A stretch of DNA of 64,000 bases from Herpetosiphon giganteus (GTDB lineage: Bacteria; Chloroflexota; Chloroflexia; Chloroflexales; Herpetosiphonaceae), in contig NZ_JAFBCZ010000009.1 in NCBI RefSeq assembly GCF_016907925.1, forward strand, positions 62,001 to 126,000, in the 5' to 3' direction. Numbering within the stretch: the stretch's first letter is position 1; each line of letters opens with the position of its first letter. The notes under the pieces are model-generated. The model worked only from the letters and a program-made list of their open reading frames with translations. It was not told the DNA's origin and searched no databases. Shown piece after piece: positions 26,676 to 60,690 of this stretch. The position numbers and the translations under genes were made by a program.

Positions 26676-27284
26676 CTAGCAAGCAACCTCACGAGCAAGC
26701 AGATGGTCATCGAAAATCATACCATGATCGGCAGTGTTCCAACCCAATGGCCACACCGTGCCAGCATTATAGCGAGCACCTTGGAGTTGAACATCAGTCA
26801 GGATAGCGTTGCGCAAATCAGCATCACGCAAATCGGCACCGCGCAAATCAGCGCCAGTAAAGTTCAATTGTTGGCGGGCTGGGTGGGCTGATTGATTGGA
26901 GCGAACCCCAAACAACGAAGCGTTGACCAAGCGTGCGCCACAGAATTGAGCTTGGCTCAAATTGGCCCCTGAAAGATCGGCATTGGTGAAATCAGCACCA
27001 TCACATTGGGCTTGATTCAGATTCGCATCACGGAAATCAGCAGCGATAGCGGCAACCCGATTGAGTCGAGCGCGGTGAAAATTACAGCGTTGCAGATTTG
27101 CACCACTCAATTGAGCACGCACTAAATCAGCCAAGTTGAATTGAGTATCTGCCAAGTTTGCATCACAGAAATCGTGGTGGCGCAAGCGGGCAAATTGCAT
27201 GTTGCTGCGATAGGCCGACAAAACGGGCATTTGAACAGGGTGGTTTTGTACATCCAAAACCAAGACATCGCGCAGGGTTGTCAT
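26676..27284 (-). CDS. Pentapeptide-repeat protein
   Basis: A 202-residue protein dominated by A(D/N)LxX pentapeptide repeats from about 30 to 175 (ANLADTQFNLADLVRAQLSG, GADLRGADLRDADLRNAIL), which fold as a right-handed beta-helix. Such proteins can mimic DNA (gyrase protection) or serve as scaffolds. No transmembrane or enzymatic domain is present, so the role stays open. GAAGGTAG lies before the ATG. It is the last recognisable gene before the 1.1-kb hairpin-rich spacer. Confidence 0.85.
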   Translation of the reverse strand: MTTLRDVLVLDVQNHPVQMPVLSAYRSNMQFARLRHHDFCDANLADTQFNLADLVRAQLSGANLQRCNFHRARLNRVAAIAADFRDANLNQAQCDGADFTNADLSGANLSQAQFCGARLVNASLFGVRSNQSAHPARQQLNFTGADLRGADLRDADLRNAILTDVQLQGARYNAGTVWPLGWNTADHGMIFDDHLLAREVAC

Positions 27285-27354
27285 AGCAGTCTACCTTCAT
27301 TTAACAACGTGGTTAAAAGAGCAAGGGCGAATTATGATGAGCGAAGGTTTGCGA

Positions 27355-27561
27355 TTAGCGTTTGCCTAAGCAAGAACTATGCTCATCGTTCGGTGACCAA
27401 GCCAAAAGGTATCTAGAACACCAGCTACGCTGTTGAACCGAGGCTATTGCAGGCAAGAATGAAACCAAAAGAGCAATTGTTTGGGCAATGATACCAACGC
27501 GAACGGATGATTGGTCGGTGAATGTCGCTTCACCGTGGTCTGCTACAAGACAATACAACAT
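27355..27561 (-). CDS. Possible small membrane protein (doubtful)
   Basis: A 68-residue reading from the ATG at 27561, with TTTGGAG about five bases upstream and one hydrophobic segment (VGIIAQTIALLVSFLPAIASV). It lies 70 bp upstream of, and in line with, the pentapeptide gene. The rest of the sequence is not convincing protein. It may be spurious or part of the pentapeptide leader. Confidence 0.25.
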   Translation of the reverse strand: MLYCLVADHGEATFTDQSSVRVGIIAQTIALLVSFLPAIASVQQRSWCSRYLLAWSPNDEHSSCLGKR

Positions 27562-27599
27562 GGTAACTCCAAACATCAGACGGTCAGGGTCTGAGGTAA

Positions 27600-28435
27600 G
27601 AATTTGGTGTGTTTATGCCATATAAACACGGGCCGATACAAATCCCGCCTCCGATAGCTCCTACCAGCCTAGGCTAGTACCTAGTTTGTGCGATGGCAGC
27701 AAGCTGCGGTATATCACCCACAATCACCAGCCAAAGCTCCAAATCAGCAACGAGGCTATTAGCCTTGTACAGGGTTGCCTGCTGGAACTTTCAGCCCGAC
27801 ACCTTTACCCACGAGGGGGATAAATCGTCAATTGTTGTGGCAGGTCGTGCCACAATAATTTGGTGATGGTTGTTCAGATCCGGTTGGTTTATCTGTGGGT
27901 TGTGGGGAGATTATACACAGATTACCCGCCATACCACTAGGTAATTAGAAACCATTTGGATAGTACCAATAGTACCACCTGGTTTCTGACCTAGAGTGTA
28001 TAGGAACTCAGTACTAGCACTTCTAGAATGAATTACCCATGCTATGGTATAACACCCATAGGGATAATTAGGCAACGACTGTTCTAGTCCTGACTATCAA
28101 ATAGTTAGGATTAGTGTAGGCCGTATCATACCAAGAATTGCGAAATTTGTCACATGGAAATGATGGTACTGGTGTAGTTGCACTTCGGGCCTGATATCCA
28201 ACTTAAATACTATACAACCATAGTCCAGCTATGGTACACTTCTCACACATAAATCCAGAGTCGTATGCAGCTATGGATGTATGTAAAGTGTAAATAGTTC
28301 CGCTCAGGATTGAGCCATTGCTGCTTGAAATCAATCTATTCTGCGCTTTGCTCCAAGCATCCATTCAAGCAGTTTCTTGTGGTAACTGATGGAAGAGTTG
28401 TGTAACTTTGGTAGGGCATAGCAGGCGCTATGCTG
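27600..28435 (+). ncRNA. Hairpin-rich noncoding region, candidate structured RNA
   Basis: No protein gene fits here. Strong stems found by eye: 27609-27616/27622-27629 (GTGTTTAT); 27831-27842/27848-27859 (12 bp, one wobble); 27891-27897/27916-27922 (7 bp); 27937-27942/27989-27994 enclosing 27947-27954/27980-27987 (6+8 bp); 28042-28047/28056-28061; 28084-28097/28101-28114 (14 bp, two wobbles); 28217-28223/28229-28235; 28321-28329/28364-28372; 28416-28422/28427-28433. The wobble pairs in the two longest stems are G.U only if the plus strand is transcribed; the minus strand would have A.C mismatches. This points to plus-strand RNA, either a separate RNA gene or a very long leader of the hybrid kinase. 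No known RNA family is recognised. Confidence 0.4.
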
Positions 28436-28446
28436 AAGGAGCACCC

Positions 28447-30714
28447 ATGCAAGCCTCAATCCAGCGCTGGCTGAATCGCATTAATCTTACCGACCCTGTG
28501 CAACGTGAGCAAGCGTTCCTACTACAGATAATGTTAATTGGCTTAAGTATCATCTGTTTCGTTACTGTTCCAACTGCGTTTATTGTCTCAAGCACCAGTG
28601 GCAGCGCTTTTCGGGCGAGCCTTACCAGTCTTTTAATTTTCATTTTCTTTGTGATTGCGGTAGTGAATCTGCGCCAAGGTCATTTTCGCCGCGCAGTTAC
28701 GCTGGCATCAAGCGGGCTTGTGGTAGGGTTATCGATAATTTTGGCGCTTGAAGGCTTACGCAATAGTGCCTGGATTCTTTCGGCCTTTATGATGCCAATT
28801 ACACTCTCAGGATTGTTAACTGGTCGCAAGGGCATTAAAACCATTGCTGGCGCAAGCATCGTTGTGATTGCCCTCATTGGTGGTCTACAACTCTTTAATG
28901 CGCAATTTATCGGAGCCTATCCACGGCTCGGCGATCTGTTGCCACCAACGATTAGCACGTTTGTATTTAGCGTTTTGATTGTAGGCTTCTTTTTTCATCG
29001 TTTTAGCGCCTCTTTAAATGATGCCTTGAGCCGCGCATTACAGCGTGAATCTGAATTACAACAGATTCGCGATAAACTTGAGATTTTGGTCGATCAGCGC
29101 ACCGCTGCCTTGCAAGATGCCTTGCACGAAGTTGAGGAACGCGAAGGTCGGCTTGAGAAAACCAATCTCGAGTTGGCAAGCGCCAAAAACGCTGCCGAAG
29201 AAGCCAACCAACTTAAATCGCGCTTCTTGGCCAATATGAGCCACGAGCTGCGCACGCCACTCAATGCAATTATCAATTTCACCGCCTTTCTTGATCGCTA
29301 TGGCGAGTTTTCCGAGCGCCAGCGCGAGCTGCAAGAACGGGTGCTGTATAACGCCGATCACTTGCTTGGCTTGATCAACGACATCCTTGATCTCTCGAAA
29401 ATCGAGGCTGGCAGGATGGAATTGATGTATGAACAAACCGAGCTTGAACCCATTATCACTGGAGTAATGGCCACTGCGAGCGGCCTGACGCGCGACAAAG
29501 GGCTTGAACTTGACTTAGAAATGCCCGAAGAATTGCCAACCATGGTGATTGATAAGGTCCGAATTCGCCAAGTGCTGCTCAATTTGCTTTCAAATGCCGT
29601 CAAATTCACAGAGCAAGGTCTTGTGAAGGTCACAATCAGCCAACCAGATCCTGAAACGGTGCAAATTGCAGTCCAAGATAGTGGGATTGGGATCGCTCCT
29701 GAGAATCAACAACAGATTTTCGAGGAGTTCCAACAAGTGCAAAACGAAGTCACCCATCAATATCAAGGCACTGGTTTAGGCTTACCAATTAGCAAACTAT
29801 TGGTGGAAATGCACGGCGGCAGCATGTGGCTCGAAAGCACGCAAGGCGAAGGCTCGACCTTTTACTTTAGCTTGCCCATTACCAATAGCTTGGCCGAAAC
29901 TACAACCATTGATCTTGCCGCGCCACCAAGTTTGGTCGAACTTGAAGCCGCAGCAAACGACCCAGCAAGCATTGAGATTGTGGTGATTGACGATAACCCT
30001 GATGCCCATGAAACCTTTCGGGTTATGCTGGAATCAGGGGGCTATCGGGTGCATAGCATCTTAGATAGCCGCTTGGCGATTAGCAGCATCAAACAAATTG
30101 AACCACGATTAATTATTACTGATGTGCAAATGCCAAATCTTGATGGTTGGGAGTTGCTGGCCCAAATCAAAAATGATCCAACGATTGCCCATATTCCGAT
30201 TGTTGTCTGTTCAGTGGTTGATCAGGGGACGATTGGGCTGGTGTTGGGGGCAAGGAAACATATTGTCAAACCTGTACGTGAGGAGGTATTGCTGGCTATT
30301 GTGCAAGAATGTGTCGAACCAACTGCTGAGATCTTGGTTGTTGATGATAACCCTGATGCTCGCCACGTTATCCAACACATTCTCGCGGCACGAGATTATG
30401 CGCTGAGCGAGGCAGCGGATGGGGTTGAGGCATTGGCGCTGATCGCACAATCCAAGCCCGATCTGGTTATTCTCGATCTGATGATGCCGAATATGGATGG
30501 CTTTGAAGTGCTCGAAGCCCTGCGGAATAATCCCAACTATGCTGACATTCCCGTGATTATTGTCAGCGCCAAGGATCTTGATCAACAGGAACATGATTGG
30601 CTGCGTACCCGCGCCCAAGGGGTCATTGCTAAACGCCAACTTAGTGAGGAAGAATTTCTTAGACGCATTAATGAGATCTTTAACCAAGGAGTAGAGTATG
30701 CCCGTGGCAAGTAA
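28447..30714 (+). CDS. Membrane hybrid histidine kinase with two receiver domains
   Basis: A 755-residue sensor. The N-terminal ~190 residues form about six membrane helices with no large extracellular domain. A coiled coil follows (LEILVDQRTAALQDALHEVE). HisKA has His about 266 in NMSHELRTPLNAII. The ATPase boxes are LLNLLSNAVKFTEQG, VQDSGIGI and YQGTGLGLPISKLLVEMHGG. Two receiver domains follow, about 510-625 (LIITDVQMPNLDGW) and 635-750 (LVILDLMMPNMDGF). GAAGGAG is six bases before the ATG at 28447. A hairpin ends just before that site. It overlaps the next gene by 17 bp, so kinase and receiver protein are co-translated. Its signal is unknown. Confidence 0.92.
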   Translation: MQASIQRWLNRINLTDPVQREQAFLLQIMLIGLSIICFVTVPTAFIVSSTSGSAFRASLTSLLIFIFFVIAVVNLRQGHFRRAVTLASSGLVVGLSIILALEGLRNSAWILSAFMMPITLSGLLTGRKGIKTIAGASIVVIALIGGLQLFNAQFIGAYPRLGDLLPPTISTFVFSVLIVGFFFHRFSASLNDALSRALQRESELQQIRDKLEILVDQRTAALQDALHEVEEREGRLEKTNLELASAKNAAEEANQLKSRFLANMSHELRTPLNAIINFTAFLDRYGEFSERQRELQERVLYNADHLLGLINDILDLSKIEAGRMELMYEQTELEPIITGVMATASGLTRDKGLELDLEMPEELPTMVIDKVRIRQVLLNLLSNAVKFTEQGLVKVTISQPDPETVQIAVQDSGIGIAPENQQQIFEEFQQVQNEVTHQYQGTGLGLPISKLLVEMHGGSMWLESTQGEGSTFYFSLPITNSLAETTTIDLAAPPSLVELEAAANDPASIEIVVIDDNPDAHETFRVMLESGGYRVHSILDSRLAISSIKQIEPRLIITDVQMPNLDGWELLAQIKNDPTIAHIPIVVCSVVDQGTIGLVLGARKHIVKPVREEVLLAIVQECVEPTAEILVVDDNPDARHVIQHILAARDYALSEAADGVEALALIAQSKPDLVILDLMMPNMDGFEVLEALRNNPNYADIPVIIVSAKDLDQQEHDWLRTRAQGVIAKRQLSEEEFLRRINEIFNQGVEYARGK

Positions 30715-31144: not shown

Positions 31145-31252
31145 ATCGCGGTAGCTCAACCAGCGCGTGATTGCTCGGCGCTGGTTGGGCTGCTATCCAG
31201 AAAGGAGCAGGGTTAAGATTACGACCTTGTGTAGGATCTCGACCCTTTGCCT

Positions 31253-32818
31253 ATGAGCTTAATTCTTGACATTTTACTCAATGATTTGCGGGCATTAATT
31301 CGCGACCTTGGCCAGAATGGCGGCCTGATGAGTCCGTCGGTCTATGATACTGCCCAAGCCTTGCGCTTATACCCAACTCCCAACGAAGATCATGTTTGGC
31401 CAGCAGTTAATTGGTTAGTCGGCCAACAACATGCCGATGGTGGTTGGGGTAATCCTGCCATGCCCTTAAGTCGGGCAGTGCCAACTTTAGCGGCGATTTT
31501 GGCGCTGCGCCACCATTGCCAACGGCGCTCAACCTTCGATGGCTTGCTCGAAGCCAAACGTTTTCTGCGCCGCCAGCTTGAATATTGGGAAAAACCTTTG
31601 CCCGATAATCTGCCAGTTGGCATGGAATTGCTGCTACCGTATATGCTCAAAGAGGCGTACCGCGAGGAACATGCCGACGATGCTGATGGGATTCCGATTA
31701 AATTACGCCTCGATATTCCCCTTGCGCCCTATCGCGAATTGATCGCCTTGGGCGAACACAAACGGGCATTGATTCAGCAAAAGAAGCCGCGCGCAGGTAC
31801 TGCTCCGGTCTATTCGTGGGAAGCGTGGGCAAGCCATGCCGATCCTGGCTTAGTTGATGGCTCCGGTGGAATTGGCCATAGCCCTGCGGCAACTGCTGCC
31901 TGGTTATTTGCCGCCAACCATAATCCGAGTTTGCAAGCAGAGATTGCTGGCGCAGAAAGCTACTTGCGCCAAGCATCATTAGCAACATCGGAAAGCGCGC
32001 CCTGTATTATGCCAACCGCATGGCCAATTCCCCGTTTCGAGCAATCATTCAGCCTCTATGCCTTGGTAACCGCCGGAATTCTCGATTTTCCGAGCATTCA
32101 AGATGTGCTCAAACCACAAATTGCTGATTTACAGCAAGCGCTCAAGCCCAAAGGCATTGGGTTTAGCGATGATTTTATGCCCGATGGCGATGATACAGCG
32201 GCAGCAGTTGCCGTGTTGATCGCCGCCGGCTATCCGGTCGATCTTGAAATTTTACGCCAATTTGAGCGCGACCAATGTTTTGTTGCCTATCACGGCGAAC
32301 TTCAACCTTCAATCTCGCTGACAGCGCGGGCGGTGCATGCCCTCGATTTGGCTGGAGTCGATATTTCGCGCTGGTGGAAGATTTTCATTGATGCCCAAAA
32401 GCTTGATGGCAGCTGGAGCGGCGATAAATGGAATACCTCGTGGCTCTATACAACATGTCACGTGTTGATTGCCTTGAAAAACTCGCCCTATAAAACAGCC
32501 ATGAAAGAAGCGGTTGCGGCGCTACAAGTCCATCAACACCCTGATGGCGGCTGGGGCATTATTCAACGCTCAACCACGGTCGAAACCGCCTATGCAGTGC
32601 TGGCTTTGCAAAATTTACGTGATGCGGGGCTGCTTGATAACGATGACATTCGCATGCTCCAACGTGGCTATAATTGGCTCTGCTCTCATTATCGCCCTTT
32701 CCGCATGAAAGAGTATCAATGTTGGCTCAATAAAGAAATTTATTGCCCCCAACGGATTGATCGCGCCTATGAGCTAAGCGCCATGTTAGCAGTCACCTTA
32801 GGAGATTTAAGGATATGA
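31253..32818 (+). CDS. Class II diterpene cyclase (kolavenyl diphosphate synthase-like)
   Basis: A 521-residue terpene cyclase of the squalene-hopene/copalyl-diphosphate fold. The catalytic acid motif DxDD is DGDDTAA at 311-317, the mark of protonation-started class II cyclases. QW-like repeats are QQHADGGWG (59-67) and VHQHPDGGWG near the end. It should cyclise geranylgeranyl diphosphate. Together with the next two genes it matches, from memory, the Haur_2145-2147 cluster of H. aurantiacus, where this enzyme makes (+)-kolavenyl diphosphate. The start is taken as the ATG at 31253; a TTG six bases earlier is also open, and the ribosome site is weak. The stop overlaps the next start (ATGA). Confidence 0.92.
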   Translation: MSLILDILLNDLRALIRDLGQNGGLMSPSVYDTAQALRLYPTPNEDHVWPAVNWLVGQQHADGGWGNPAMPLSRAVPTLAAILALRHHCQRRSTFDGLLEAKRFLRRQLEYWEKPLPDNLPVGMELLLPYMLKEAYREEHADDADGIPIKLRLDIPLAPYRELIALGEHKRALIQQKKPRAGTAPVYSWEAWASHADPGLVDGSGGIGHSPAATAAWLFAANHNPSLQAEIAGAESYLRQASLATSESAPCIMPTAWPIPRFEQSFSLYALVTAGILDFPSIQDVLKPQIADLQQALKPKGIGFSDDFMPDGDDTAAAVAVLIAAGYPVDLEILRQFERDQCFVAYHGELQPSISLTARAVHALDLAGVDISRWWKIFIDAQKLDGSWSGDKWNTSWLYTTCHVLIALKNSPYKTAMKEAVAALQVHQHPDGGWGIIQRSTTVETAYAVLALQNLRDAGLLDNDDIRMLQRGYNWLCSHYRPFRMKEYQCWLNKEIYCPQRIDRAYELSAMLAVTLGDLRI

Positions 32819-33690
32819 TCCGCGACAGCATTCCAACGCTTGCAGAATTTCTCCAAGCTCCACTTGAATCCATCCGCCAGGTTGCGCCAAAAACCATGGT
32901 TTTTTCGAGTGGCGGCAGCCGCCGTAAAGCGGCATTGGCCAATTTGCCAGCAACTGGCGAAGCGTATGCGCGTTGGTCGCACGGACAATTATTAGCATGT
33001 TTACAGCTCTTTTTCCGCCACGGCATTAAGCATCTGTTTTTACCAATGCTTTTGCCCAATCAATTCCAAGAAACCACACCAGATTATCGCGAACATCTTG
33101 AGGGTTGGGTTGCTCGCGGAGCTGCTGGCTCCGCCATGCGAGAGTTTTATCGCGAACACAATTGGCGAGTGCGCTTGCTCGATACCCAACCATCGCCGAT
33201 TATCACCGAAGCGGCTCAAAGCCTGCATCAACCTTCCGACAATTCGGAGCAGCCAACCCTCTGGTGGTTTATTGTCCGCGATTCAGAAGATCCTTGGCAA
33301 GCTATTTTCCAAGCTGCCCATCAGACTGCCTTCAAAACACGGAGTCAAGCAATTGAGGCGATCTATGGCGAACCAATTCCGCCTGCTGAATTATTGGTTT
33401 CATTTGGTAAACCACAGATTAATCAGGATGTGTTACCACCCTTGTTGGTGGGCAATCTGCAATGTTACTGGACGCAAAAACCGGGTTATACCTTGAGCGA
33501 AGCCGAATTTCGCCAGATTTTGTATGATTTTGCCTACACGCGCCAAACCTGGCAGAGCGATAAAACCGAACGTACCAAGGCCGCCTTAGAATTTCGGCAG
33601 CACTGGGAACGCGGCCCCATTCTCGGGCTTGGCCAACAACTAGGCCCATTTTGGTATCCACAATCAACCAGCATTGAATTAGAGTTGTAG
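32815..33690 (+). CDS. Diterpene synthase of the tuberculosinol-synthase (Rv3378c) type, kolavelool synthase-like
   Basis: A 291-residue enzyme that should remove diphosphate from the class II product and add water (kolavelool formation in the characterised Herpetosiphon cluster). It resembles mycobacterial Rv3378c, which has a cis-prenyltransferase-like fold, in length and landmarks: GGSRRKAAL at 33-41, FRHGIKHLFLPML, EFYREHNWRVRLLDT, IEAIYGEPIPPAEL and FRQILYDFAYTRQ. It has none of the DDxxD/NSE motifs of ordinary class I terpene synthases. The tandem Arg 36-37 is kept, but the Asp that I recall as D34 in Rv3378c is Gly here. TTAAGGAT lies before the ATG, which overlaps the cyclase stop, so the two are translationally coupled. 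Confidence 0.88.
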   Translation: MIRDSIPTLAEFLQAPLESIRQVAPKTMVFSSGGSRRKAALANLPATGEAYARWSHGQLLACLQLFFRHGIKHLFLPMLLPNQFQETTPDYREHLEGWVARGAAGSAMREFYREHNWRVRLLDTQPSPIITEAAQSLHQPSDNSEQPTLWWFIVRDSEDPWQAIFQAAHQTAFKTRSQAIEAIYGEPIPPAELLVSFGKPQINQDVLPPLLVGNLQCYWTQKPGYTLSEAEFRQILYDFAYTRQTWQSDKTERTKAALEFRQHWERGPILGLGQQLGPFWYPQSTSIELEL

Positions 33691-33713
33691 CAGCGTTTTA
33701 AGGAGAATTGTGT

Positions 33714-34565
33714 ATGACAGTCTTAGCAACCGATCTATCAGAACCCAACCCACCAAGCATCAACGATGTCGAAACCTATTACGACGCAATGGGGCCATTT
33801 TATAAGCTGATTTGGGGTGATAGTGTTCACGGGGGCTATTGGCCAGCGGGCTTAGAACATTTATCATTGCCCGAAGCCCAAGAACATTTGACCTATTTGA
33901 TGATTGAGAAAACGCCAATTGCCGCTGGTCAACACATGCTTGATCTTGGTTGTGGCACAGGTTTACCAGCAATTCGCATGGCCGCTGCCAAAAACTGTCA
34001 CGTGCATGGCATTACTGTTGCCCACGGCCAAGTTGCTGAAGCCCAAACTACTATTCAAGCCATGCAAATGCAGGAAAAGGTGCAGATTGCTTGGGGCAAC
34101 GCCATGGAATTGCCCTTTGCTGATGGGTTTTTCAACGCTGCATGGGCTTTCGAATCAATCTTCCATATGCCCAGCCGCCTGACTGTCTTACAAGAGGCCA
34201 ATCGCGTGTTGCAAGCTGGCAGCTATTTGGTGCTGACCGATATTGTTGAAGTCAAACCACTAAGCCTTGAGCAAAAACACATCTTTTACCCTGCATTTCA
34301 GATCAATACCCTGACCACTAAGCAGGGCTACCTTGAGCTTTTTGATCAAACGGGCTTCGAACAGCTTGAATTGATCGATTTGACCGCAGGAATCGCCAAA
34401 ACGCTGGCCCACACCAAACTTGGTATCGAGAAAAAACGGGCCGAACTGGAGGCGATTTATCCACCACCAATGTTGGCGATGATCGAACAAACATGGCCGA
34501 TGGTTGAGAAAATTTATGCAGATTATGTGCGCTATGTGTTGATTGTGGCGCGCAAACGTGGCTAA
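33714..34565 (+). CDS. SAM-dependent O-methyltransferase of the diterpene cluster
   Basis: A 283-residue class I methyltransferase related to the UbiE/gamma-tocopherol methyltransferase group. An N-terminal YYDAMGPFYKLIWGDSVHGGYW block precedes the SAM loop MLDLGCGTGLPA (about 75-86). GNAMELPFADGFFNAAWAFESIFHM is motif II/III. In the characterised cluster the matching enzyme O-methylates kolavelool. AAGGAG lies eight bases before the ATG at 33714; the upstream in-frame TTG overlaps that site. It is 23 bp after the synthase gene, so it is the last gene of a three-gene operon. Confidence 0.9.
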   Translation: MTVLATDLSEPNPPSINDVETYYDAMGPFYKLIWGDSVHGGYWPAGLEHLSLPEAQEHLTYLMIEKTPIAAGQHMLDLGCGTGLPAIRMAAAKNCHVHGITVAHGQVAEAQTTIQAMQMQEKVQIAWGNAMELPFADGFFNAAWAFESIFHMPSRLTVLQEANRVLQAGSYLVLTDIVEVKPLSLEQKHIFYPAFQINTLTTKQGYLELFDQTGFEQLELIDLTAGIAKTLAHTKLGIEKKRAELEAIYPPPMLAMIEQTWPMVEKIYADYVRYVLIVARKRG

Positions 34566-44857: not shown

Positions 44858-45006
44858 TTTTGATCCACGAAGCGCACGAAGAGCACGAAGCGGATGAGGC
44901 TATTGGCTTTTGGCTCTTGGCGAGCGGAACAATTGGTGGGTGATGCAACAGTGGTTGGCACTGTACGGATACCAGTCCCCAGCCCCTGACCCCCGACCCC
45001 TCGCAC

Positions 45007-45082
45007 AAAACCCCTGCGTTTCCCTCCGGCGGAGGGACGGAAGGGTGGCGAAATCCAATGAGATCAACAATTTCCACGTTTA
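45007..45082. repeat. 76-bp direct repeat, left copy (family A plus tail)
   Basis: It matches 45775-45850 at all but three of 76 positions. It contains the family A hairpin CCCTCCGGCGGAGGG and then a shared tail AATGAGATCAACAA that the other family A copies lack. It lies just upstream of the AT-rich gene. Confidence 0.9.
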
Positions 45083-45119
45083 TACATCTAATTTCGATTT
45101 TTGTGGAGATACATTTTCA

Positions 45120-45695
45120 ATGATCGTCTATCAATCGACCCTTGAGCACATTCGTTCAATTATCAAAGTACAAACAAATCTCGATATTATCGATTCAATT
45201 AGCATTCAAAATAGCAAAATAGTGTTCATCAATAGCTTACATTTGCCAATTATTCGCCGAATAATGGAAGAATATACTATTAATTTAAATGGTTTATATT
45301 TGCTTAAACCAATTCATCTATTAAACGATTCAATTAATCTCGATACAATTTTTATTGATCAATCGATTAATCGGCCAAATGCAATCATCGATAAACGCAA
45401 CATCGATTATACAATTTGGCTTGAATCTGAGGCAAGCTCAGCTGAATTCCACAATCAATTCAATCGAACACTCGATGCTATTAATATGAGTATAAGCTTT
45501 ACCGATGGGGATAACTTTAGCTTTAGTATTGAAACATTCGACTTTTTTGATCTTCAATTAACTAAATCAGCTGAATTGGGTTTATTTGAAACACCAGATA
45601 TTTTGATTCAGAGCCTCGATCGGCCAACAATTGAATGCATGGTTGCGCATCTGATCGAGCATAATCAGCTTGATGATAGATTTTTAACCACATAG
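45120..45695 (+). CDS. AT-rich orphan gene, unknown function
   Basis: A 191-residue protein from the ATG at 45120 (GGAGAT about 12 bases upstream). It is rich in Ile, Asn, Asp and Ser (IRSIIKVQTNLDIIDSISIQ, IDQSINRPNAIIDKRN) and built from AT-rich codons, quite unlike the neighbouring genes. No signal peptide, membrane segment or recognised domain is seen; predicted alternation of strands suggests an alpha/beta protein. Starting further upstream would translate the repeat. It is enclosed by 76-bp direct repeats, which suggests that gene and repeats arrived or moved together. It could be a small effector or immunity-like protein, but that is speculation. Confidence 0.6.
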   Translation: MIVYQSTLEHIRSIIKVQTNLDIIDSISIQNSKIVFINSLHLPIIRRIMEEYTINLNGLYLLKPIHLLNDSINLDTIFIDQSINRPNAIIDKRNIDYTIWLESEASSAEFHNQFNRTLDAINMSISFTDGDNFSFSIETFDFFDLQLTKSAELGLFETPDILIQSLDRPTIECMVAHLIEHNQLDDRFLTT

Positions 45696-45757
45696 GGGAA
45701 TCTTTTTTAACCACGAAGAGGGATTTGTACCAGCAGCACATTCCACAACATAAACAT

Positions 45758-45850
45758 TTGGGGTGCAGGGGATGAAAACCCCTGCGTTTCCCTCCGGCGG
45801 AGGGACGGAAGGGTGGCGAAATTCAATGAGATCAACAACTTCCACGGTTA
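45758..45850. repeat. Dispersed repeat family A, with right copy of 76-bp direct repeat
   Basis: It begins with GGGTGCAGGGG and the G-run/C-run hairpin. From 45775 on it repeats the left copy (45007-45082). Confidence 0.9.
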
Positions 45851-45889
45851 GAATAAAAGCCTAGATTCAACAATAATCTACAGATTAAA

Positions 45890-45923
45890 TCAAAAAGCCA
45901 GCGATCAACACATGATCGCTGGC
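45890..45923 (-). terminator. Rho-independent terminator of the sigma-factor operon
   Basis: Minus strand: a perfect 11-bp stem GCCAGCGATCA/TGATCGCTGGC, loop of five, then TTTTTG, 15 bp after the stop of the LolA/RseB-like gene. Confidence 0.85.
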
Positions 45924-45937
45924 CTGCTATTCAAGGC

Positions 45938-46813
45938 TTATTGGCTAACTTCGATTGGAGCGCCTGCTGGTGGAGCGAAGAAATCGGCTGGGTAATCAGC
46001 ATTAACTTCGAATTCAGTATAGGCTGATTCAACGAACATATCGCCATTCGATTCGTAATACTCCGACTTCAGCACCACAAACAACTCATCATCAATCCAG
46101 AATTTGAGTCGGCTGTTGGCTTGGTCGCTATCGCCACCAATCACGCATTCGATCACCAAGGCATCGCGACCCAAGAAGCTTTCTTGACCAACGGTTGAAA
46201 GTTGATCGCCTGGTTGGGCGCACAAACCGTCGCTATTGCCATTCGAGTCGAGCGAAGCGGTTGGGTTTGGAATCACATACAATGCGCCATCCAATTCGCT
46301 TGAACTGAACTGGGAAACGGTGCCATCAACTGTATTAGGCTGGCCTGCTGGCGAGATCCAAGCCCAAGCATCAGCGCCATTCATAATTTGGGTTTCGTAT
46401 TGTTCGGCGCTGGTTTCGCTGCCTGGCCAAACAATTTCTTTGCGCAATTTATTTGGTTGCTGGACCCAAATTTCTTCGCTGACCGTGCTGCCAGTTCCTG
46501 GCACATGGGTTTCGAGCACGCCATGCAGCGAATCGATGCCAGTCAAACCAAAGGCGGTTACTTGTTCGGCGCGGCGCAAGGCTTCTTTGGCACTAACTTG
46601 GCTGACTTGGCTTGGCAGCAAGCCAAAACCAACTGCGGCCAATGCTACTCCAGTCGCGGCCATCATCGCTGGGCGCAACCAGCCCGTGCGACGGGTTTGT
46701 GGCTTGAGGCTAGCTTGTTGTTGCAATGGTTTGAGCATGTTGAGCGATCCTTCGGGAATTTCGTGCTCTGCCACGTTGGCGAGTGCTTTTGAGATGGTAT
46801 TATCGTTATGCAT
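45938..46813 (-). CDS. Membrane-anchored RseB/LolA-like protein, probable sigma-factor partner
   Basis: A 291-residue protein with a ~45-residue cytoplasmic N-terminus, one membrane helix about 49-68 (MMAATGVALAAVGFGLLPS) and an extracellular domain. The latter resembles the MucB/RseB-LolA fold (LHGVLETHVPGTGSTVSEEIW, RLKFWIDDELFVVLKSEYYESNG, YTEFEVNADYPADFFAPP). The domain usually senses lipid or envelope state. The gene is 14 bp after the ECF sigma gene, so it probably acts as, or together with, the anti-sigma factor. No zinc-binding anti-sigma motif (HxxxCxxC) is visible. Confidence 0.8.
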   Translation of the reverse strand: MHNDNTISKALANVAEHEIPEGSLNMLKPLQQQASLKPQTRRTGWLRPAMMAATGVALAAVGFGLLPSQVSQVSAKEALRRAEQVTAFGLTGIDSLHGVLETHVPGTGSTVSEEIWVQQPNKLRKEIVWPGSETSAEQYETQIMNGADAWAWISPAGQPNTVDGTVSQFSSSELDGALYVIPNPTASLDSNGNSDGLCAQPGDQLSTVGQESFLGRDALVIECVIGGDSDQANSRLKFWIDDELFVVLKSEYYESNGDMFVESAYTEFEVNADYPADFFAPPAGAPIEVSQ

Positions 46814-46827
46814 TACAGACTCCTCGA

Positions 46828-47394
46828 CTACACAGATTCATTAATAATTGGGGCTAAGAGCCGACGTAGACGTTCGCGAGCACCCAACAGGCGTTGTTTG
46901 ATCGCGCCTGGGCTGGTGGCTGCATCGTGAGCCATTTCGGCTTCGCTCATGCCAAGGTAATAGCGTTGCACAATTGCCGCACGCTGCAACGGCGTTAGTT
47001 GATTCAAGGCCTGCACGACGGTTTCGCGCATAGCATCTTGTTCTAGCAAGGCCTCTGGTTGCGGCTCATTGCTCATCAATTCTTCAAACATTGCCAAACC
47101 AGCAGCGTTCGATTGATCAAGTGATCGGTGACGTTCGCGGCGTTGGGCATCTTTCAAGGCATCATTCAACACAATTTTCATAAACCACGGCCCAAAGGCC
47201 CGCTGGCTATCAAATTGTTGGATGCGCTGCACCACCCGCAGAAAAGCCGATTGAACAATATCTTCGGCGGCAGATCGATCGCGGACAACCAAGATCGCTG
47301 CTCGCACTGCCTGATATTGATATTGGTGAACCAAGGGGGCCAGCCCAGCAATATCACCTTGTTTGAGTCGAGCTATAGCCTCGTGATCGTGCAT
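46828..47394 (-). CDS. ECF-type RNA polymerase sigma factor
   Basis: A 188-residue sigma-70-family protein. Region 2 is about 25-90 (YQAVRAAILVVRDRSAAEDIVQSAFLRVVQRI, RAFGPWFMKIVLNDALKDAQRR). Region 4 is about 125-175 (LNQLTPLQRAAIVQRYYLGMSEAEMAHDAATSPGAIKQRLLGARERL). It directs transcription of a stress regulon. It is followed directly by a membrane partner gene and ends at a shared terminator. A palindrome at 47417-47430, 22 bp upstream of the start codon, may be part of its control region. Confidence 0.92.
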   Translation of the reverse strand: MHDHEAIARLKQGDIAGLAPLVHQYQYQAVRAAILVVRDRSAAEDIVQSAFLRVVQRIQQFDSQRAFGPWFMKIVLNDALKDAQRRERHRSLDQSNAAGLAMFEELMSNEPQPEALLEQDAMRETVVQALNQLTPLQRAAIVQRYYLGMSEAEMAHDAATSPGAIKQRLLGARERLRRLLAPIINESV

Positions 47395-47416
47395 ATCCTT
47401 CCTTTCAGCCTAAGAT

Positions 47417-47430
47417 TGAGAGCGCTCTCG
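47417..47430. promoter_or_regulatory. Palindrome upstream of ECF sigma gene
   Basis: GAGAGCGCTCTC (47418-47429) is a perfect 12-bp palindrome. TGAGAGCGCTCTCG around it resembles the LacI-family-type boxes noted in the cellulase leaders. Confidence 0.45.
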
Positions 47431-47472
47431 CTTTATATATCCAAGAGCAGGCCAAAAAGTTAGGTCTAAGGA

Positions 47473-47735
47473 TAGAACAAAGAACAAAGAGCAAAGAAGA
47501 AAAGTCAGAAGGATGAGGGATGAAGGATGAAAGCAAAAGTCAAAAATCAAATCAGAAGCCCATAGCCACCAGCCTATAACCACAGCTTCGTACCCTTCTT
47601 GGAGAGCATGTTTAACGCAGAGGCGCAGAGAAATAAGGCTATGGGATGGTGGCTATCGGAACATCATTCTTGCAATTCGTGCAATTCGTAGCAAAAATGA
47701 AGCCTTCGTGTTCTTCGCGCTCTTCGTGGTTCCGA
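47473..47735. repeat. Heptamer and 9-bp repeat cluster
   Basis: The 460-bp spacer between the sigma gene and the GNAT gene holds no protein gene. It contains heptamers (AAAGAAC/AAAGAGC near 47473-47500, AAGGATG/AGGGATG near 47509-47530). It also has an inverted 9-bp array (CTTCGTGTTCTTCGCGCTCTT near 47704-47725). An AACGCAGAGGCGCAGAG phrase at about 47613 recurs inverted at about 47840-47857. Confidence 0.75.
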
Positions 47736-47854
47736 TGCGAGGGATCGGGTGTCAGGGATTGGGGATCGGTTCCGTGTCAATTCCCAACGTCTTTGCTAAA
47801 CCTGTTAAATTCCGATAGCCAACAGCCAACAGCCTGATCCTCTGCGCCTCTGCG

Positions 47855-48388
47855 TTAAAATTCTCTTCGTGAGTCTTTTTCTATCGAATAGAGCATTGCC
47901 GGCGTGCCATCGAGCACAATTTCACGCTCTATGTGCATGCCCATTTTTTCAGCAACCCGCATCGAAGCAGCATTTTCGGGAATTGGCAAACAAATCAGGC
48001 GCTCAAAATTCAATACATCAAAGCCATAAGCCACAATTGCTTGGGCTGCCTCGGTTGCCAAACCCTGCCCCCAATAGGCTCGATCGAGCAAATAGGCCAC
48101 TTCAACTTCTTGGCGCTCATCGATGACCCACGGCAATAAGCCACAACGCCCAATAAATGCTCCGGTTGGCTTATAAATCGTCGCCCATAAACCATAGCCA
48201 TACTCGCCATAATACACCTTGATAATCCAATCAAGCTCAGCTTTAGTTTCCTCGCGATCCAACACGCCCTCGGGAAAATGCTCGCGAATAATCGGATCTC
48301 GGTAAAGCCGAAATAAAGCATCAAGATCGGCATCCGTTAGTTTGCGTAACATCAGGCGTTCGGTTTCAAGAATAATCTGATCAGCCAT
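47855..48388 (-). CDS. GNAT acetyltransferase, RimJ/RimL type
   Basis: A 177-residue acetyltransferase. Family landmarks are TERLMLRKLTDADLDALFRL near the start, GRCGLLPWVIDERQEVEVAYLLDRAYWGQGLATEA (acetyl-CoA loop WGQGLATEA) and NAASMRVAEKMGM with the final ER. RimJ/RimL-like enzymes acetylate protein N-termini or small molecules. AAGGAGC precedes the ATG. It appears to be a single gene. Confidence 0.9.
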   Translation of the reverse strand: MADQIILETERLMLRKLTDADLDALFRLYRDPIIREHFPEGVLDREETKAELDWIIKVYYGEYGYGLWATIYKPTGAFIGRCGLLPWVIDERQEVEVAYLLDRAYWGQGLATEAAQAIVAYGFDVLNFERLICLPIPENAASMRVAEKMGMHIEREIVLDGTPAMLYSIEKDSRREF

Positions 48389-48487
48389 AAACTGCTCCTT
48401 AAACTGTTTACTGGATGCTAGCAGTTTTGCTTGAATTACGAATCAATCGCTTGATTGAGCGTAAAATCATCCCTGCGCCCTTCATGC

Positions 48488-48493
48488 TATAAT
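48488..48493 (+). promoter_or_regulatory. Extended -10 promoter
   Basis: TATAAT preceded by TG one base upstream (TGCTATAAT), 46 bp before the DUF4268 gene start. Confidence 0.6.
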
Positions 48494-48538
48494 CGGTAGT
48501 AGTTTTGCAGCCCAACGGTGTAGTGAGGAATTACGGCG

Positions 48539-49519
48539 ATGAATCAGCTTGGTCGGCTTAAACGGGTTCCGATTCACGATGCTTGGCGACAAGCAGCCAG
48601 CCATTTTACCCATTGGCTCACTCAAGCAGAAAATATCGCCCAATTAAACACCGCCACCAACCTCGAATTGCGTTTTGAGGCGCTCAACAAAGGCACTGGC
48701 AATTTGCGCCAAAGCCTTGTCTGCTACGATCAACGCACCGAAACCAAAGTCTTGATCGAAAATCAATTAGCTGGCAGCGATCACGCTCATCTTGGCCAAT
48801 TGCTCACCACCGCCAGCAGCGTTAAAGCGACGATTTTGATTTGGATTGCTGAGCATTTTACGCCTGAGCATCGGGCCACCATCGAATGGCTCAATCAACA
48901 AACTCTGCCGCATCTCTTGTTTTTTGCAATTGAACTGGAATTATGGCAAATTGATGATTCACCGTTTGCCCCGCATTTCAAGCTGATTTGTAAGCCCGCA
49001 GATTGGGAATTGGCGATTACTAACGAGCCAAGTTTGCCAGCCGCTCCGCCAACAGCAAATCCCAGCAAAAACATTTATTTAGGCTATTGGATGCGCTTTA
49101 ATGCGATGTTGCGCGAGCGTAATAGCCACCTTGGAGCCAAAAAACCGCATTCTGAGCCAAGCACCAGCTTTGCCTTAGGCCGAGCCGATTGCAGCTTGCA
49201 AGCGAGCTTAAATGCCCGCGATAATTGGCTTGGGGTAGCGGTGATGTTGAGTGGAATTTCAGCCAAATTGCGTTTTCGCTGGCTGCGCCAACAACGAGTA
49301 GCGATTGAGCAACAATTAGGCGTTGGCCTCGAATGGCGCGAAAATCCCTTAACTAAGGAATATCAAATTTGGCTGGTTCGGCGCAACGCCAACCTCCACG
49401 ATCATCAGCATTGGGCCGACCATCACGTTTGGATGATCGACACCCTTGAGCGTTTTTACCGCGTGTTTACGCCGTTGCTCAAGCAATTGTATATTCGCAA
49501 CGAGCCAGAACAGAATTAA
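48539..49519 (+). CDS. DUF4268-domain protein, PD-(D/E)XK-like
   Basis: A 326-residue protein. The N-terminal half (about 10-165) resembles the nuclease-like fold next to DUF4268 domains: LELRFEALNKGTGNLRQSLVCYD, VLIENQLAGSDHAHLGQLL (with a possible E-x-Q/D active-site pair) and ILIWIAEHFTPEHRATIEWLN. The C-terminal half is DUF4268 (WMRFNAMLRERN, LNARDNWLGVAVMLSG). Such proteins may be defence-associated nucleases or repair proteins; the activity is unproven. GTGAGG precedes the ATG, and an extended -10 box lies 46 bp upstream. Confidence 0.75.
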   Translation: MNQLGRLKRVPIHDAWRQAASHFTHWLTQAENIAQLNTATNLELRFEALNKGTGNLRQSLVCYDQRTETKVLIENQLAGSDHAHLGQLLTTASSVKATILIWIAEHFTPEHRATIEWLNQQTLPHLLFFAIELELWQIDDSPFAPHFKLICKPADWELAITNEPSLPAAPPTANPSKNIYLGYWMRFNAMLRERNSHLGAKKPHSEPSTSFALGRADCSLQASLNARDNWLGVAVMLSGISAKLRFRWLRQQRVAIEQQLGVGLEWRENPLTKEYQIWLVRRNANLHDHQHWADHHVWMIDTLERFYRVFTPLLKQLYIRNEPEQN

Positions 49520-49713
49520 GATCCCCTCACCCCAAACCCGCTCCCGTGGCGCGGGCGAGGGGCTTTAATCCATAGTTCGTACACAATTCGGCGGTAAAAA
49601 TAGGTGCTCGCCCGCGTCCAGTGGAAAAGGTGCTTAATCTGATGGTTTTCGCATGATTGCCAAATGCTCCCCCTCGCCCGCGTTCAGTGGGCGAGGGGGC
49701 TGGGGGGTGAGGG
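49520..49713. repeat. Dispersed GC-rich palindromic repeat, family B (two units)
   Basis: Units of CCCGTGGCGCGGGCGAGG (about 49543-49563) and CCTCGCCC...GGGCGAGGGG (about 49672-49700) fill the space between the converging DUF4268 and STAS genes. They may replace an ordinary terminator. Confidence 0.75.
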
Positions 49714-49721
49714 AACAGCCT

Positions 49722-51287
49722 TTAACGTCTGCGGGTTTGCAAATACTCAGTGGCGCGGCTGAAGGCTTGGGCCAAGGTTGCTGCCGTATCAATCACCGCC
49801 AGATCCAAGTGCAAATTAACCAAGGTTTCGGCCATATCAGGCCGAATCCCAGCCAAAATCACCCGTGCGCCGAGCAATTGGGCCGCATGCGAGGCATTGA
49901 TCAAGGCGCGGGCAACCGCTGCATCGACTACTGGCACGCCCGTAATATCCATAATCACAACTTTGGCTTGTTGCTGCTCAATCGCTTTGAGCAAGGTTGC
50001 ATTAATATCACCAGCTCGATTGGCGCTAAATTCACCAACCAACGGCATGACCAAAATTTGTTTGGTAATTGGGATGGTCGGCATGCTCAAGCGACGGACG
50101 GTTTCGAGTAGGCGTTCTTGCTCCACATTTTGGGCCTGCACCTCGGCCAAGGCATGGTGTAACTCGCCAGTTCGCGTCACGACCAAGCCTTCTAGCTCCT
50201 CGTTCATCTTCGCAAGCTTGGTTTGCGAGGCGTTCAAGCCCACCACCATCGTATTGAAGGCATCGCCAAGGCTGGCCAATTCATCGCGAGTTTTGAGGTG
50301 CACAGGCGTGTAGGCCTTGGGATCGTTGGTAAAGCGCGTGACGCTAGCATACAGTTCTTGAACTGGTAAGGCCAGCCGCCGCCCAACATACCAGCCAATC
50401 CCCGCCACGAGTGGCAAGGCAATCCCAATTACGATGGAGAGGCTGAGCGCCAATGTTCGCACATTACTATAGATTACGTCAAGTGGACGTTCGACGATCA
50501 ACAGCCAATCGGTGGGATCAAGCGCGGTGCGCACGCCCAATACTTCTTCGCCAAATGGGCTAGTGTAGGTTTCAATGGTATTGCCATTTGTCAGCAACGG
50601 CAAGTTAGCTAAATCTTGATGTTCGATCAGCGATTGGGTATTGGCCGCGCTGAGAAGCTGGCCTTGTTGATTAACCACCAACACCCGCATCTGAGCCGCC
50701 GATTCGATCCGCGAAGTCGTTTCCCAAATCCGATCCATGCTAATATCGGCAACCAGAATTAATTCGCCATTGGCACGGCCCAACACAGGCAAGGCCATGC
50801 GAAAACGTGGCACTTCGCTTGGCGCAAGCGGCAAAGAAACTGCCTGCAATGGCTCGGGATTTTGAATGGCAACTTGGCGATTTTGCAGCATTTGCAATAA
50901 TGGCGAGCCAGCCAAACTTTCGGGCATCTGCACGCCGCGCAAACGGGCGGCCACTGCAATCCGTTCGCCAGTAACCCGATATACGCCAACTTCGGAGAAG
51001 CTTGAGCCAAACAGCACTTGCGAACCTAATTGCAAATCGCTCAGCTGGCTGGGATTGCCATTATTGCCAATTGTATTGCTGGCGTTGCGCAATTCATCCA
51101 TACTATTGAGGATAAAGCGCCGATAATCTTCAGCTGCAAGGTTGGTCAGCGCAATTTGCTGATTTTGGGCAGAATTCTGTTGCGCACGATAACTAATCGT
51201 CAAGGCAATTGCCCAGACCGCTAATAACGGCAACAGCGCCGCAAGCAAAACTATTAATGTAACTCGTTGGCGAACCCGTGCCCGCAT
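49722..51287 (-). CDS. Transmembrane sensor: dCache-like, HAMP and STAS (RsbR-type) domains
   Basis: A 521-residue sensor. Membrane helices at about 8-30 and 275-300 enclose a Cache-like extracellular domain. A HAMP region follows about 300-355 (RRLALPVQELYASVTRF, RDELASLGDAFN), then a coiled coil to about 400. The STAS domain is about 405-515 (LVMPLVGEF, VVIMDITGVPVVDAAVARALI, ILAGIRPDMAETLV). RsbR-type STAS proteins sit in stressosomes. The Thr in AETLV matches one RsbR phosphorylation site, while the other (VDTxVA) is Ala here, as far as memory of the family serves. It lies 72 bp after the ABC binding-protein gene on the same strand, suggesting a ligand-to-stressosome pathway. Confidence 0.85.
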   Translation of the reverse strand: MRARVRQRVTLIVLLAALLPLLAVWAIALTISYRAQQNSAQNQQIALTNLAAEDYRRFILNSMDELRNASNTIGNNGNPSQLSDLQLGSQVLFGSSFSEVGVYRVTGERIAVAARLRGVQMPESLAGSPLLQMLQNRQVAIQNPEPLQAVSLPLAPSEVPRFRMALPVLGRANGELILVADISMDRIWETTSRIESAAQMRVLVVNQQGQLLSAANTQSLIEHQDLANLPLLTNGNTIETYTSPFGEEVLGVRTALDPTDWLLIVERPLDVIYSNVRTLALSLSIVIGIALPLVAGIGWYVGRRLALPVQELYASVTRFTNDPKAYTPVHLKTRDELASLGDAFNTMVVGLNASQTKLAKMNEELEGLVVTRTGELHHALAEVQAQNVEQERLLETVRRLSMPTIPITKQILVMPLVGEFSANRAGDINATLLKAIEQQQAKVVIMDITGVPVVDAAVARALINASHAAQLLGARVILAGIRPDMAETLVNLHLDLAVIDTAATLAQAFSRATEYLQTRRR

Positions 51288-51359
51288 ATCAATGATCCTA
51301 TCTTTGCTGAAACGTTGCTTTGCGACGTTGAATCAAATGTAATGCCTCAAGCATTCTGC

Positions 51360-52511
51360 TTAGCGCAGCTGGCTTGGGTCAAGTTTATCGAGAAAAATAA
51401 AATCTCCACGCTCAATTTGCACAAACAAGACAGTTTTGTTAACTTCGCGCTCTGGCGTAAAGGCAATCACCCCCGTTACGCCTTCAAAGGTTTGGGTTGC
51501 GGCCAAGCTATCGCGAATTGTGCTCGAACTGCTATTTGGGCTACGCTTGAAGGCATCGATCAATAAGTTGGTCGCATCGTAGGTCGACGAAGCCACCACA
51601 TCAGGGTCGATATTGTAGGCGTTGCGAAATTCACGAATAAAATTTTGCACAATTGCCCGTGGATCATTGCGTGAAAAATCGGTTGCCAAGATCACACCTT
51701 CAACATCGCTGCCGCCGAGTTTGACCAACGAAGGCGAATCTAAGCCATCGGAGCCAATAATTGGCAAGGTAATACCTGCTTGGCGCACTTGTTTAATAAT
51801 ATCAGCACTTTGCGCATAATAGCCAATCAATATCAAGGCATCTGCTGGTTTGGCCTTGATCGTAGCAATCTGGCTACTAAAATCGCTCGTATCGCTGGTA
51901 TATTCACTGGTGCTAACAATTGTTGATTGATTGGCGATTGCGGTTTTGGTAAAGGCTTCGGTAACGCTGCGCCCATAATCATTATTAATATTCAAGACAT
52001 GGAAATTACGATAGTTCAGTTTGGTTGTCGCATACTGAGCAAGCGCTTTCCCTTGCACCGTCGTTATATAAATGACCCGAAAAATCATCGAGCCAGTTTT
52101 GGTAACGTCGGGATGGGTTGCATACGCCGCGAGCATTGGAATGCCGGCCTGCTGAAAGATGGGGGCTGCTGCGCGGGTTGTGCTGCTGTAGGAGCCGCCA
52201 ATCACCGCCCGCACCTTATCCTCGGTTACCAGCTTTTGGGCCACCGTAATCGCTTGATTTGGCTCAAGTTGATCGTCGTAGGCAACCAATTCAAAGGTTT
52301 TGCCAGGCACGCTTTGGTTGGCGTTCGCTTGATCAATCGCCAGCTTAGCCGCATGCATTGCATTATTCCCATCGCTCGCACTCGCACCAGTTAATGGGCC
52401 GAAAAAGCCAATTTTAATCGTCTCTGATTGGGGCTGAGAAGAACTTCCACAGGCACTAACCAAGGCCAAGCCGATGAAGACAAGCATTCCCAAGCTGGCT
52501 CGTTTGAGCAT
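51360..52511 (-). CDS. ABC-type branched-chain amino acid/amide binding lipoprotein (orphan)
   Basis: A 383-residue lipoprotein of the Peripla_BP_6 (LivJ-like) family. Lipobox LALVSACG (Cys about 21), then IKIGFFGPLTGASASDGNNA and VRAVIGGSYSSTTRAAAPIFQQAGIPMLA. A two-lobed ligand-binding fold continues to the end. AGGAGG lies before the ATG at 52511; the longer upstream reading lacks one. No permease or ATPase genes are nearby; instead a transmembrane STAS sensor follows. It may present its ligand to that sensor (inference). Confidence 0.9.
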   Translation of the reverse strand: MLKRASLGMLVFIGLALVSACGSSSQPQSETIKIGFFGPLTGASASDGNNAMHAAKLAIDQANANQSVPGKTFELVAYDDQLEPNQAITVAQKLVTEDKVRAVIGGSYSSTTRAAAPIFQQAGIPMLAAYATHPDVTKTGSMIFRVIYITTVQGKALAQYATTKLNYRNFHVLNINNDYGRSVTEAFTKTAIANQSTIVSTSEYTSDTSDFSSQIATIKAKPADALILIGYYAQSADIIKQVRQAGITLPIIGSDGLDSPSLVKLGGSDVEGVILATDFSRNDPRAIVQNFIREFRNAYNIDPDVVASSTYDATNLLIDAFKRSPNSSSSTIRDSLAATQTFEGVTGVIAFTPEREVNKTVLFVQIERGDFIFLDKLDPSQLR

Positions 52512-52788
52512 GGTCAATCCTCCTGTATGGGATAGCACATGGCTTAGTAGGCTACTAACGATGAGCGATTTCGCTTAAATCACGCTGCCGCATGGCTAGT
52601 CTAGCACACAAGCACCCGCATGAGCAGTTGAGATTTAGAGGGAATTTTTAGCTGATCGCCAACCCTCTAGGCTATGCGCATGCTAGGAGTATTGGCTTAT
52701 TGCCCAACTGAATCCAAGCATTCTCTCATCAGCAAGCGCAAATTACGTGGTAGCATGAGACCGGATTCATCAACTGATGGAGAACATC

Positions 52789-53769: not shown

Positions 53770-53788
53770 TTAAGCACTTGGGGAGCAG

Positions 53789-53819
53789 AAACCCGCGCCT
53801 GTTGAAAAGGCGCGGGTTT
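53789..53819. terminator. Bidirectional terminator
   Basis: A perfect 12-bp stem AAACCCGCGCCT/AGGCGCGGGTTT with a 7-base loop, between the oxidoreductase and trpA. Confidence 0.88.
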
Positions 53820-53836
53820 GCTGTGAGGGCAATTAA

Positions 53837-54652
53837 TTATTGGTGATAGCCATTGGCTTGGTCGGCAGCATCACGCAGTTTTTGCACAAACTGTTGCGCG
53901 CCAGCCGCCTGTTGGTCGTTTGGCAAACTACCAATATAATCGAGCAAGGCGCTGGCACAAATCGCGCCTTCGGCCATGGTGGCAACTGAGGCAACATGTT
54001 CAGGCTTGGAAATTCCAAAACCCACCGCGCGCGGCAATTGGCTGTGTTGGCGTACTCGCGCCAAGAAATCGCCCAAATCGTCGGCCAAGGCCGCGCGTGC
54101 GCCAGTTACTCCGCGCAAGGCCACACAATAGATAAAGCCCGATGACAAGCCAGCAACTTTGGCAATCCGCGCATCGGTTGAGGTTGGAGCCAAGAGAAAC
54201 ACCAAATCAAGCTCATGGGCTTTGGTGGCCGCATGAAACTCTTGGGCTTCTTCTGGTGGCAAATCGGGCACGATAAAGCCATCGGCTCCTGCTGCTTTGG
54301 CCGCTGCCACAAATCGCTCAACGCCATATTGAAACATGGGGTTGAAATAGCCCATCAGCAAGAGCGGAATGCTCAGCCCAGCAGCCCGCAACTGGCGCAC
54401 GGTTTCCAAGCAAAATTCAAGATCAACGCCATTGGCCAGCGCAATATCGGTCGTGCGTTGAATCGTCGCGCCATCGGCCAAGGGGTCGGAAAATGGCATG
54501 CCGAGTTCCAGCATATCCGCGCCGCCAGCCACCAAGGCTTGGGCTAAACTCAGGGCAGAATCGCGCTCAGGGTAGCCAATCGTCAAAAACGGCATCAGGG
54601 CTGTCCGACCCTGGCTGGCCAAGCGTTCAAAGGTTTGGGCAATTCGGCTCAT
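53837..54652 (-). CDS. trpA: Tryptophan synthase alpha subunit
   Basis: A 271-residue TIM-barrel enzyme that splits indole-3-glycerol phosphate into indole and glyceraldehyde phosphate for the TrpB subunit. The catalytic Glu is in [18 protein letters not shown] (about 42-59) and the catalytic Asp in [19 protein letters not shown] and [13 protein letters not shown] are further family blocks. AGGAT lies before the ATG at 54652. It is separated from all other trp genes. It is 23 bp after the ligase gene and may share its transcript, which is an unusual partner. Confidence 0.95.
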
Positions 54653-54675
54653 AGCATCCTCAACTACAGCAGCCA

Positions 54676-56358: not shown

Positions 56359-56480
56359 TGCACAAATACTCCTTAACTGAGAGCACACAGCGAACAGCCT
56401 CACCATTATATACGATGCTTGTGGTCGAGAATTAAGTTAATATAGTGTGTCACAATTCATACAATCCAAGGAAGCGAGTG

Positions 56481-60682: not shown

Positions 60683-60690
60683 AATACACC

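Follow-up and report, generated by a model that had tools for sequence, protein, structure and literature searches.

What is encoded in the long, hairpin-rich spacer between a pentapeptide-repeat gene and a hybrid histidine kinase gene in Herpetosiphon, and on which strand is it read? The spacer adjoins a diterpene gene cluster in the window analysed here (the whole 64-kb stretch, G000:C9:62001-126000, of a Herpetosiphon genome). An earlier note had described it as a candidate large structured RNA on the plus strand, possibly a very long leader of the kinase message.

Locus and gene content

The spacer runs between the starts of two divergent genes:

26676..27284, minus strand: pentapeptide-repeat protein gene (PF00805, E 1e-29), the next gene downstream on the minus strand
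28447..30714, plus strand: hybrid histidine kinase gene (HisKA, HATPase_c and two receivers), the first gene of the divergent side

The kinase gene is the first beside the genes for a class II diterpene synthase, a kolavelool synthase and a methyltransferase (31247-34565). As far as its citation in PMC9440906 conveys, the O-methylkolavelool cluster of H. aurantiacus (Nakano et al. 2015) is the counterpart of these genes and the same cluster that the window carries, with the spacer separating it from the pentapeptide gene. The literature that we searched yielded no description of a long leader or a second HMG-CoA reductase for the O-methylkolavelool cluster, and no paper on a Herpetosiphon transcriptome or non-coding RNA.

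Two further observations concern the surroundings of the spacer. Synteny ends at ~44.9 kb, since most of the window to the right of this point (44910-64000) has nothing equivalent in the H. aurantiacus DSM 785 neighbourhood. Within the kinase gene, the N-terminal (sensor) part at 28500-29050 is swapped in H. llansteffanensis and genome G003, with ~57-69% DNA identity over most of its length, while the spacer and kinase core of these two genomes are as conserved as elsewhere; the sensor appears to be a modular exchange between species.

The absence of a protein gene from 27562-28446, claimed from the window alone, holds across genomes: no conserved frame with protein-like substitutions was found there, and a hidden protein was rejected. 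Nor does the stretch match a known RNA family, again as proposed: for the window, for the spacer and for related loci, Rfam searches at gathering and relaxed thresholds (E up to 5) came back empty; a search for tRNA and tmRNA likewise found none.

Conservation across the genus

A search of other Herpetosiphon genomes, which the earlier note had suggested, recovered the spacer as a single, syntenic copy in 6/6 genomes compared. These genomes form two clades, one comprising the window genome, H. llansteffanensis and H. geysericola, and the other H. aurantiacus DSM 785 and two others. Identity to H. aurantiacus is 0.97 over 27550-27660, 0.96 over 27859-28035 and 0.95 over 28083-28165, whereas between-clade identity at four-fold degenerate sites is 50-59% in the VWA and kinase genes and 72-76% in the pentapeptide gene. 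Identity of 94% is reached by 36% of 50-nt windows here, compared with 0-23% in the other alignable spacers of the 64-kb window, none of which equals this one in conservation. The alternation of conserved blocks with freely varying pieces (27510-27535, 27661-27705 and 28166-28192) speaks for purifying selection and against recent exchange. Half a kilobase of noncoding DNA is near-unchanged here although nearly half of the silent sites have diverged, which indicates a strong function absent from the annotation.

The conservation has its own limits. The kinase-proximal spacer, 28256-28420, is poorly conserved (72-75% identity between clades), and on the other side conservation extends past the fold described below into 27285-27500, where there is no significant fold. 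Over codons 1-50 of the pentapeptide gene (27135-27284), 17/20 four-fold sites are identical between clades, compared with 15/25 in the next 50 codons, so that nucleotide constraint may extend into this gene.

A decayed protein gene or a mobile element is scarcely credible in such a setting. An HMG-CoA reductase gene does fill the neighbouring position in a sister genus, as a decayed gene would lead one to expect, but decay is incompatible with 95-97% identity where neutral sites are at 50-59%. The mobile or repeated element was rejected because the spacer is single copy and without a phage, plasmid, viral-contig or Rfam match. Conservation refutes both, unless the spacer alone was swapped between species by recombination.

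Beyond the genus, BLAST, two covariance models and a DNA pattern, applied to up to 82 genomes of the order, returned only one block, in the sister genus; the pattern missed a base present in Herpetosiphon, which makes its zero matches there uninformative. Weak matches in other genomes were low-scoring and were set aside, the best of them (G028) being a G+C-rich repeat. Varied gene contexts or phyla were not seen in these searches, which place the element in Herpetosiphon and, as a ~100-nt block, in one sister genus only.

Hairpins and other sequence elements

The hairpin-rich stretch reported by the earlier note is real, exceptional and conserved, and all the stems listed there were located in the sequence. 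Those that matter most for the argument are the following:

27830-27842 x 27848-27860, strand not assigned: 13-pair hairpin (12 Watson-Crick pairs and one G.T) with an invariant core, GTGGCA/TGCCAC
27929..28003, strand not assigned: compound hairpin with a 6+8-bp stem (27937-27942 x 27989-27994 and 27947-27954 x 27980-27987)
28084-28097 x 28101-28114, strand not assigned: 14-bp stem (12 Watson-Crick pairs and two G.T), where the predicted minus-strand RNA begins
27735..27798, minus strand: arm with compensatory changes (27778-27747, G-C/A-T between clades; 27763-27755, G-C/A-T in H. geysericola)
28416..28433, plus strand: perfect 7-bp hairpin GCATAGC-AGGC-GCTATGC, invariant, two bases before the kinase Shine-Dalgarno

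Hairpins occur at two to eight times their frequency in shuffled sequence: 14 have at least seven Watson-Crick pairs, where dinucleotide shuffles give 5.9 +- 2.5 and never more than 11, and four have at least nine, where shuffles give 0.5. The outer pairs of the 27830-27860 hairpin are broken in the far clade. The compound hairpin at 27929-28003 is the best local folding window (z -5.5 on the minus strand), on which it corresponds to helices 7-9 of the consensus fold (29 pairs, one broken cell), and two of its CTAGs pair with each other. The CTAG excess noted from the window is likewise borne out, since 27400-28120 has nine copies where shuffled sequence averages 3.0 (threefold; 0/500 shuffles as high), with 9-10 copies in the near clade and six in the far clade. 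An invariant direct repeat with 10-bp spacing, ATAGTACC, lies at 27961-27978 and is a possible candidate for a protein-binding site.

Promoter-like sites

Two promoter-like sites stand out in a scan that, as a limitation, used the E. coli sigma70 consensus:

28125..28153, minus strand: candidate promoter GTGACA, 17 nt, extended -10 TGG-TATGAT (score 12), invariant in six genomes
28211..28240, plus strand: candidate kinase promoter TATACA, 18 nt, extended -10 TGG-TACACT (score 10), with the -10 invariant

The first is the strongest promoter-like site of the spacer (0.04 expected per 1162 bp in the window) and has a predicted start near 28118; the conserved structured stretch sits exactly downstream of it and ends at 27561. 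The second is the next best (0.71 expected per 1162 bp) and lies inside an ACCATAG/CTATGGT dyad, downstream of the structured part, where it would be a fitting start for the kinase message. Upstream of 28211, the spacer scan gave no plus-strand site with a score of at least 9. No terminator-like site was found in 27200-28500, where factor-dependent ends may still occur.

Consensus fold and strand

Base composition shows no strand preference, and because the single-sequence MFE z is low on both strands (-4.85 on plus, -6.66 on minus), folding energy does not choose between them. The RNAalifold consensus fold of 27550-28118 in six genomes has a z against column shuffles of -7.8 on the plus strand and -5.6 on the minus strand, compared with -3.5 to 0 for three equally long coding controls drawn from the six-genome alignment. 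All six genomes share 43 MFE pairs on the minus strand and 29 on the plus strand; in the coding controls they share 0-2. The conserved fold is therefore specific to 27550-28118.

On the minus strand, 99.6% of cells are paired, with 10 double-change cells in five pairs and a covariation of 0.062 (0/500 shuffles each), against 98.3%, three double-change cells in three pairs and 0.049 on the plus strand (22/500 shuffles each). Single-sequence folds also agree better on the minus strand, although in some genomes the column-shuffle z and the single-sequence z are equally low or lower on the plus strand. The clearest compensatory pair, 27778-27747, is G-C in one clade and A-U in the other. A conserved structure with compensatory changes is thus present (z -5.6, five two-sided pairs, negative controls), with modest power. 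The covariation test that the earlier note had proposed is, then, weakly positive, resting on five pairs in six related genomes of two clades and on a structure derived from the same alignment; because the genomes are related and most stem columns invariant, minus-strand covariation is support rather than proof.

The plus-strand assignment had been argued from the two longest stems, in which mismatched positions are G.U pairs only on that strand. This holds for the strongest simple stems as they stand in the window; in the other five genomes, however, the pair 28086-28112 is A.C on the plus strand and G.U on the minus strand. The assignment is not well supported, given that the best promoter-like site is an invariant one on the minus strand, where pairs of the fold are also broken less often and compensated more often. 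A conserved structured RNA without an Rfam family at this spacer is well supported, and it is most likely read from the minus strand, away from the diterpene genes. We set out the predicted RNA as follows:

27562..28118, minus strand: conserved structured noncoding leader (predicted RNA), based on block identity, the consensus fold and controls near zero

By the same evidence, it is improbable that, as first suggested, the hybrid kinase mRNA has this stretch as a very long plus-strand leader. The G.U pairs of the strongest stems in the window would suit such a leader, and the plus-strand consensus fold is also significant. However, that fold has more broken pairs, the scan gave no plus-strand promoter candidate upstream of the structured part (that of the kinase lies downstream of it), and the stretch nearest the kinase is the poorly conserved one.

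The hairpins could also be dyad operators in a DNA-level regulatory region for two divergent operons, with RNA structure incidental. Invariant dyads are predicted by the operator and RNA readings alike, and their arms are indeed invariant and their loops variable (6.5% of stem columns vary, 19% of loops and 23% of the rest). The repeated AATAGTACC at 10-bp spacing, the CTAG sites, the two divergent promoter candidates and the alike fold scores of both strands would fit operators as well. The dyads, however, are unlike each other in sequence and too many over ~560 bp for ordinary operators, long-range pairs carry compensatory changes, and no DNA-binding regulator was identified among the neighbouring cluster genes examined. 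The length, the dyad variety and the long-range compensations therefore make operators less likely, and we consider them a rather unlikely explanation.

Start site and sister genus

At its downstream end, the predicted minus-strand RNA runs into a translation start:

27604-27589 x 27581-27565, minus strand: terminal hairpin, 14 pairs invariant in six genomes, pairing the Shine-Dalgarno GGAG (27570-27567)
27355..27561, minus strand: 68-codon open frame (62 codons in the far clade) whose ATG follows the covered Shine-Dalgarno; coding doubtful

The ATG at 27561 and the GGAG are themselves invariant in six genomes. Of expression-platform features, the invariant Shine-Dalgarno helix is present and a terminator is not. 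The apparent order on the minus strand, read from the sequence, is an invariant promoter-like site, a structured stretch and a Shine-Dalgarno.

The frame behind this start seems to evolve unlike a protein and its coding status is doubtful: it has two synonymous against 14 non-synonymous codon changes, 24/30 four-fold sites identical and no Pfam match. It ends ~70 nt before the pentapeptide gene, a distance equal to that between reductase and pentapeptide gene in G007, a genome of the same family and another genus. The frame is open in 6/6 genomes, has a hydrophobic stretch and differs between clades by an in-frame 18-nt indel.

In G007, the gene that precedes the pentapeptide gene is a second, cluster-linked class II HMG-CoA reductase, which is absent from Herpetosiphon at this locus; a housekeeping copy lies elsewhere in G007. 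The Shine-Dalgarno, ATG and CAGAC/GTCTG hairpin of this reductase align with window positions 27554-27646, so that the gene starts at an ATG homologous to 27561 behind the same hairpin, with the inner CAGAC/GTCTG arms kept. The alignment covers a ~90-100-nt piece only, with E-values of 2.6e-5 in blastn and 1.9e-5 in nhmmer (on G007 contigs) and of 1.2e-16 with a covariance model that includes the G007 sequence itself. The reductase leader folds better on the minus strand (z -2.6, versus -1.0 on the plus strand). Since the homologous start serves the reductase, minus-strand transcription has a known purpose there, the production of a mevalonate-pathway enzyme. Another G007 contig carries the kinase, a response regulator, the two diterpene synthases and the methyltransferase in unchanged order, the spacer being broken by an IS-like inverted repeat.

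Further features of G007 were seen in passing. The second reductase (L124:2857-4167) lies beside a cytochrome P450-like gene (L124:683-2197), and the contig ends L124:4478-4577 and L125:1-95 carry the same ~95-bp sequence inverted, like the terminal repeats of insertion elements.

The genes downstream are thus the 68-codon frame and the pentapeptide gene in Herpetosiphon, and HMG-CoA reductase and the pentapeptide gene in the sister genus. The leader was not found before the housekeeping reductase genes of Herpetosiphon. The reductase tree, in which one row was in the wrong frame, does not separate a loss by Herpetosiphon from a gain by the sister genus; the leader has outlived the reductase only if Herpetosiphon once had this gene here and lost it.

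Discussion

The explanation that we favour, and hold to be just on the probable side, is that the spacer, as the divergent control region of the O-methylkolavelool cluster, holds a structured minus-strand 5' leader of ~557 nt that acts in cis as a translational gate. Specifically, an RNA would be made from the candidate promoter at 28153-28125, and its first ~557 nt (28118-27562) would adopt the conserved multi-branched structure, with the terminal hairpin covering the Shine-Dalgarno of the ATG at 27561. The closed hairpin would block ribosome loading, and refolding would give ribosomes access to the frame at 27561 and to the pentapeptide gene that follows. The trigger of refolding could be a metabolite, a protein or temperature.

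Alternatively, the spacer might encode an independent large non-coding RNA that acts in trans, from either strand, perhaps as the remnant leader of a lost HMG-CoA reductase gene. Its structured, conserved part has a definite start at the candidate promoter, the frame that follows lacks protein-level conservation, and conservation of the element persists between genera without a conserved downstream gene. An RNA of this kind would not need an invariant Shine-Dalgarno and ATG, however, and the one found here is confined to one genus and without a terminator-like site in 27200-28500. We regard it as unlikely, if still worth serious consideration. To the related idea of a ~560-nt structured RNA class of Herpetosiphon, once the leader of the second HMG-CoA reductase in the diterpene cluster, kept with its start site when that gene disappeared and now an RNA in its own right, we attach the same limited credence.

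Structured cis-regulatory 5' leaders, such as riboswitches and leader motifs, likewise lie between a promoter-like site and a Shine-Dalgarno, and likewise have a conserved fold with a terminal helix that pairs the Shine-Dalgarno. Compared with the usual ones, the spacer element is longer (~557 nt), occurs in one genus only and has no Rfam match. Large ornate bacterial RNAs (OLE, GOLLD, ROOL and HEARO) are hundreds of nucleotides long, multi-branched and encode no protein, all of which the spacer element shares; unlike them, it is genus-restricted, ends at a translation start and lacks a terminator, and it gave no Rfam match to them. We therefore file it as a structured cis-regulatory leader of a known kind, with an unusual length and an unusual history.

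The corrected strand changes the choice of probe and reporter. If the spacer does encode a leader RNA, a characterised diterpene cluster of a predatory bacterium would gain a control point that can be tested. The leader would also be a case of RNA regulation in a phylum where little is known of it, and would show that an RNA element can persist after the gene that it served.
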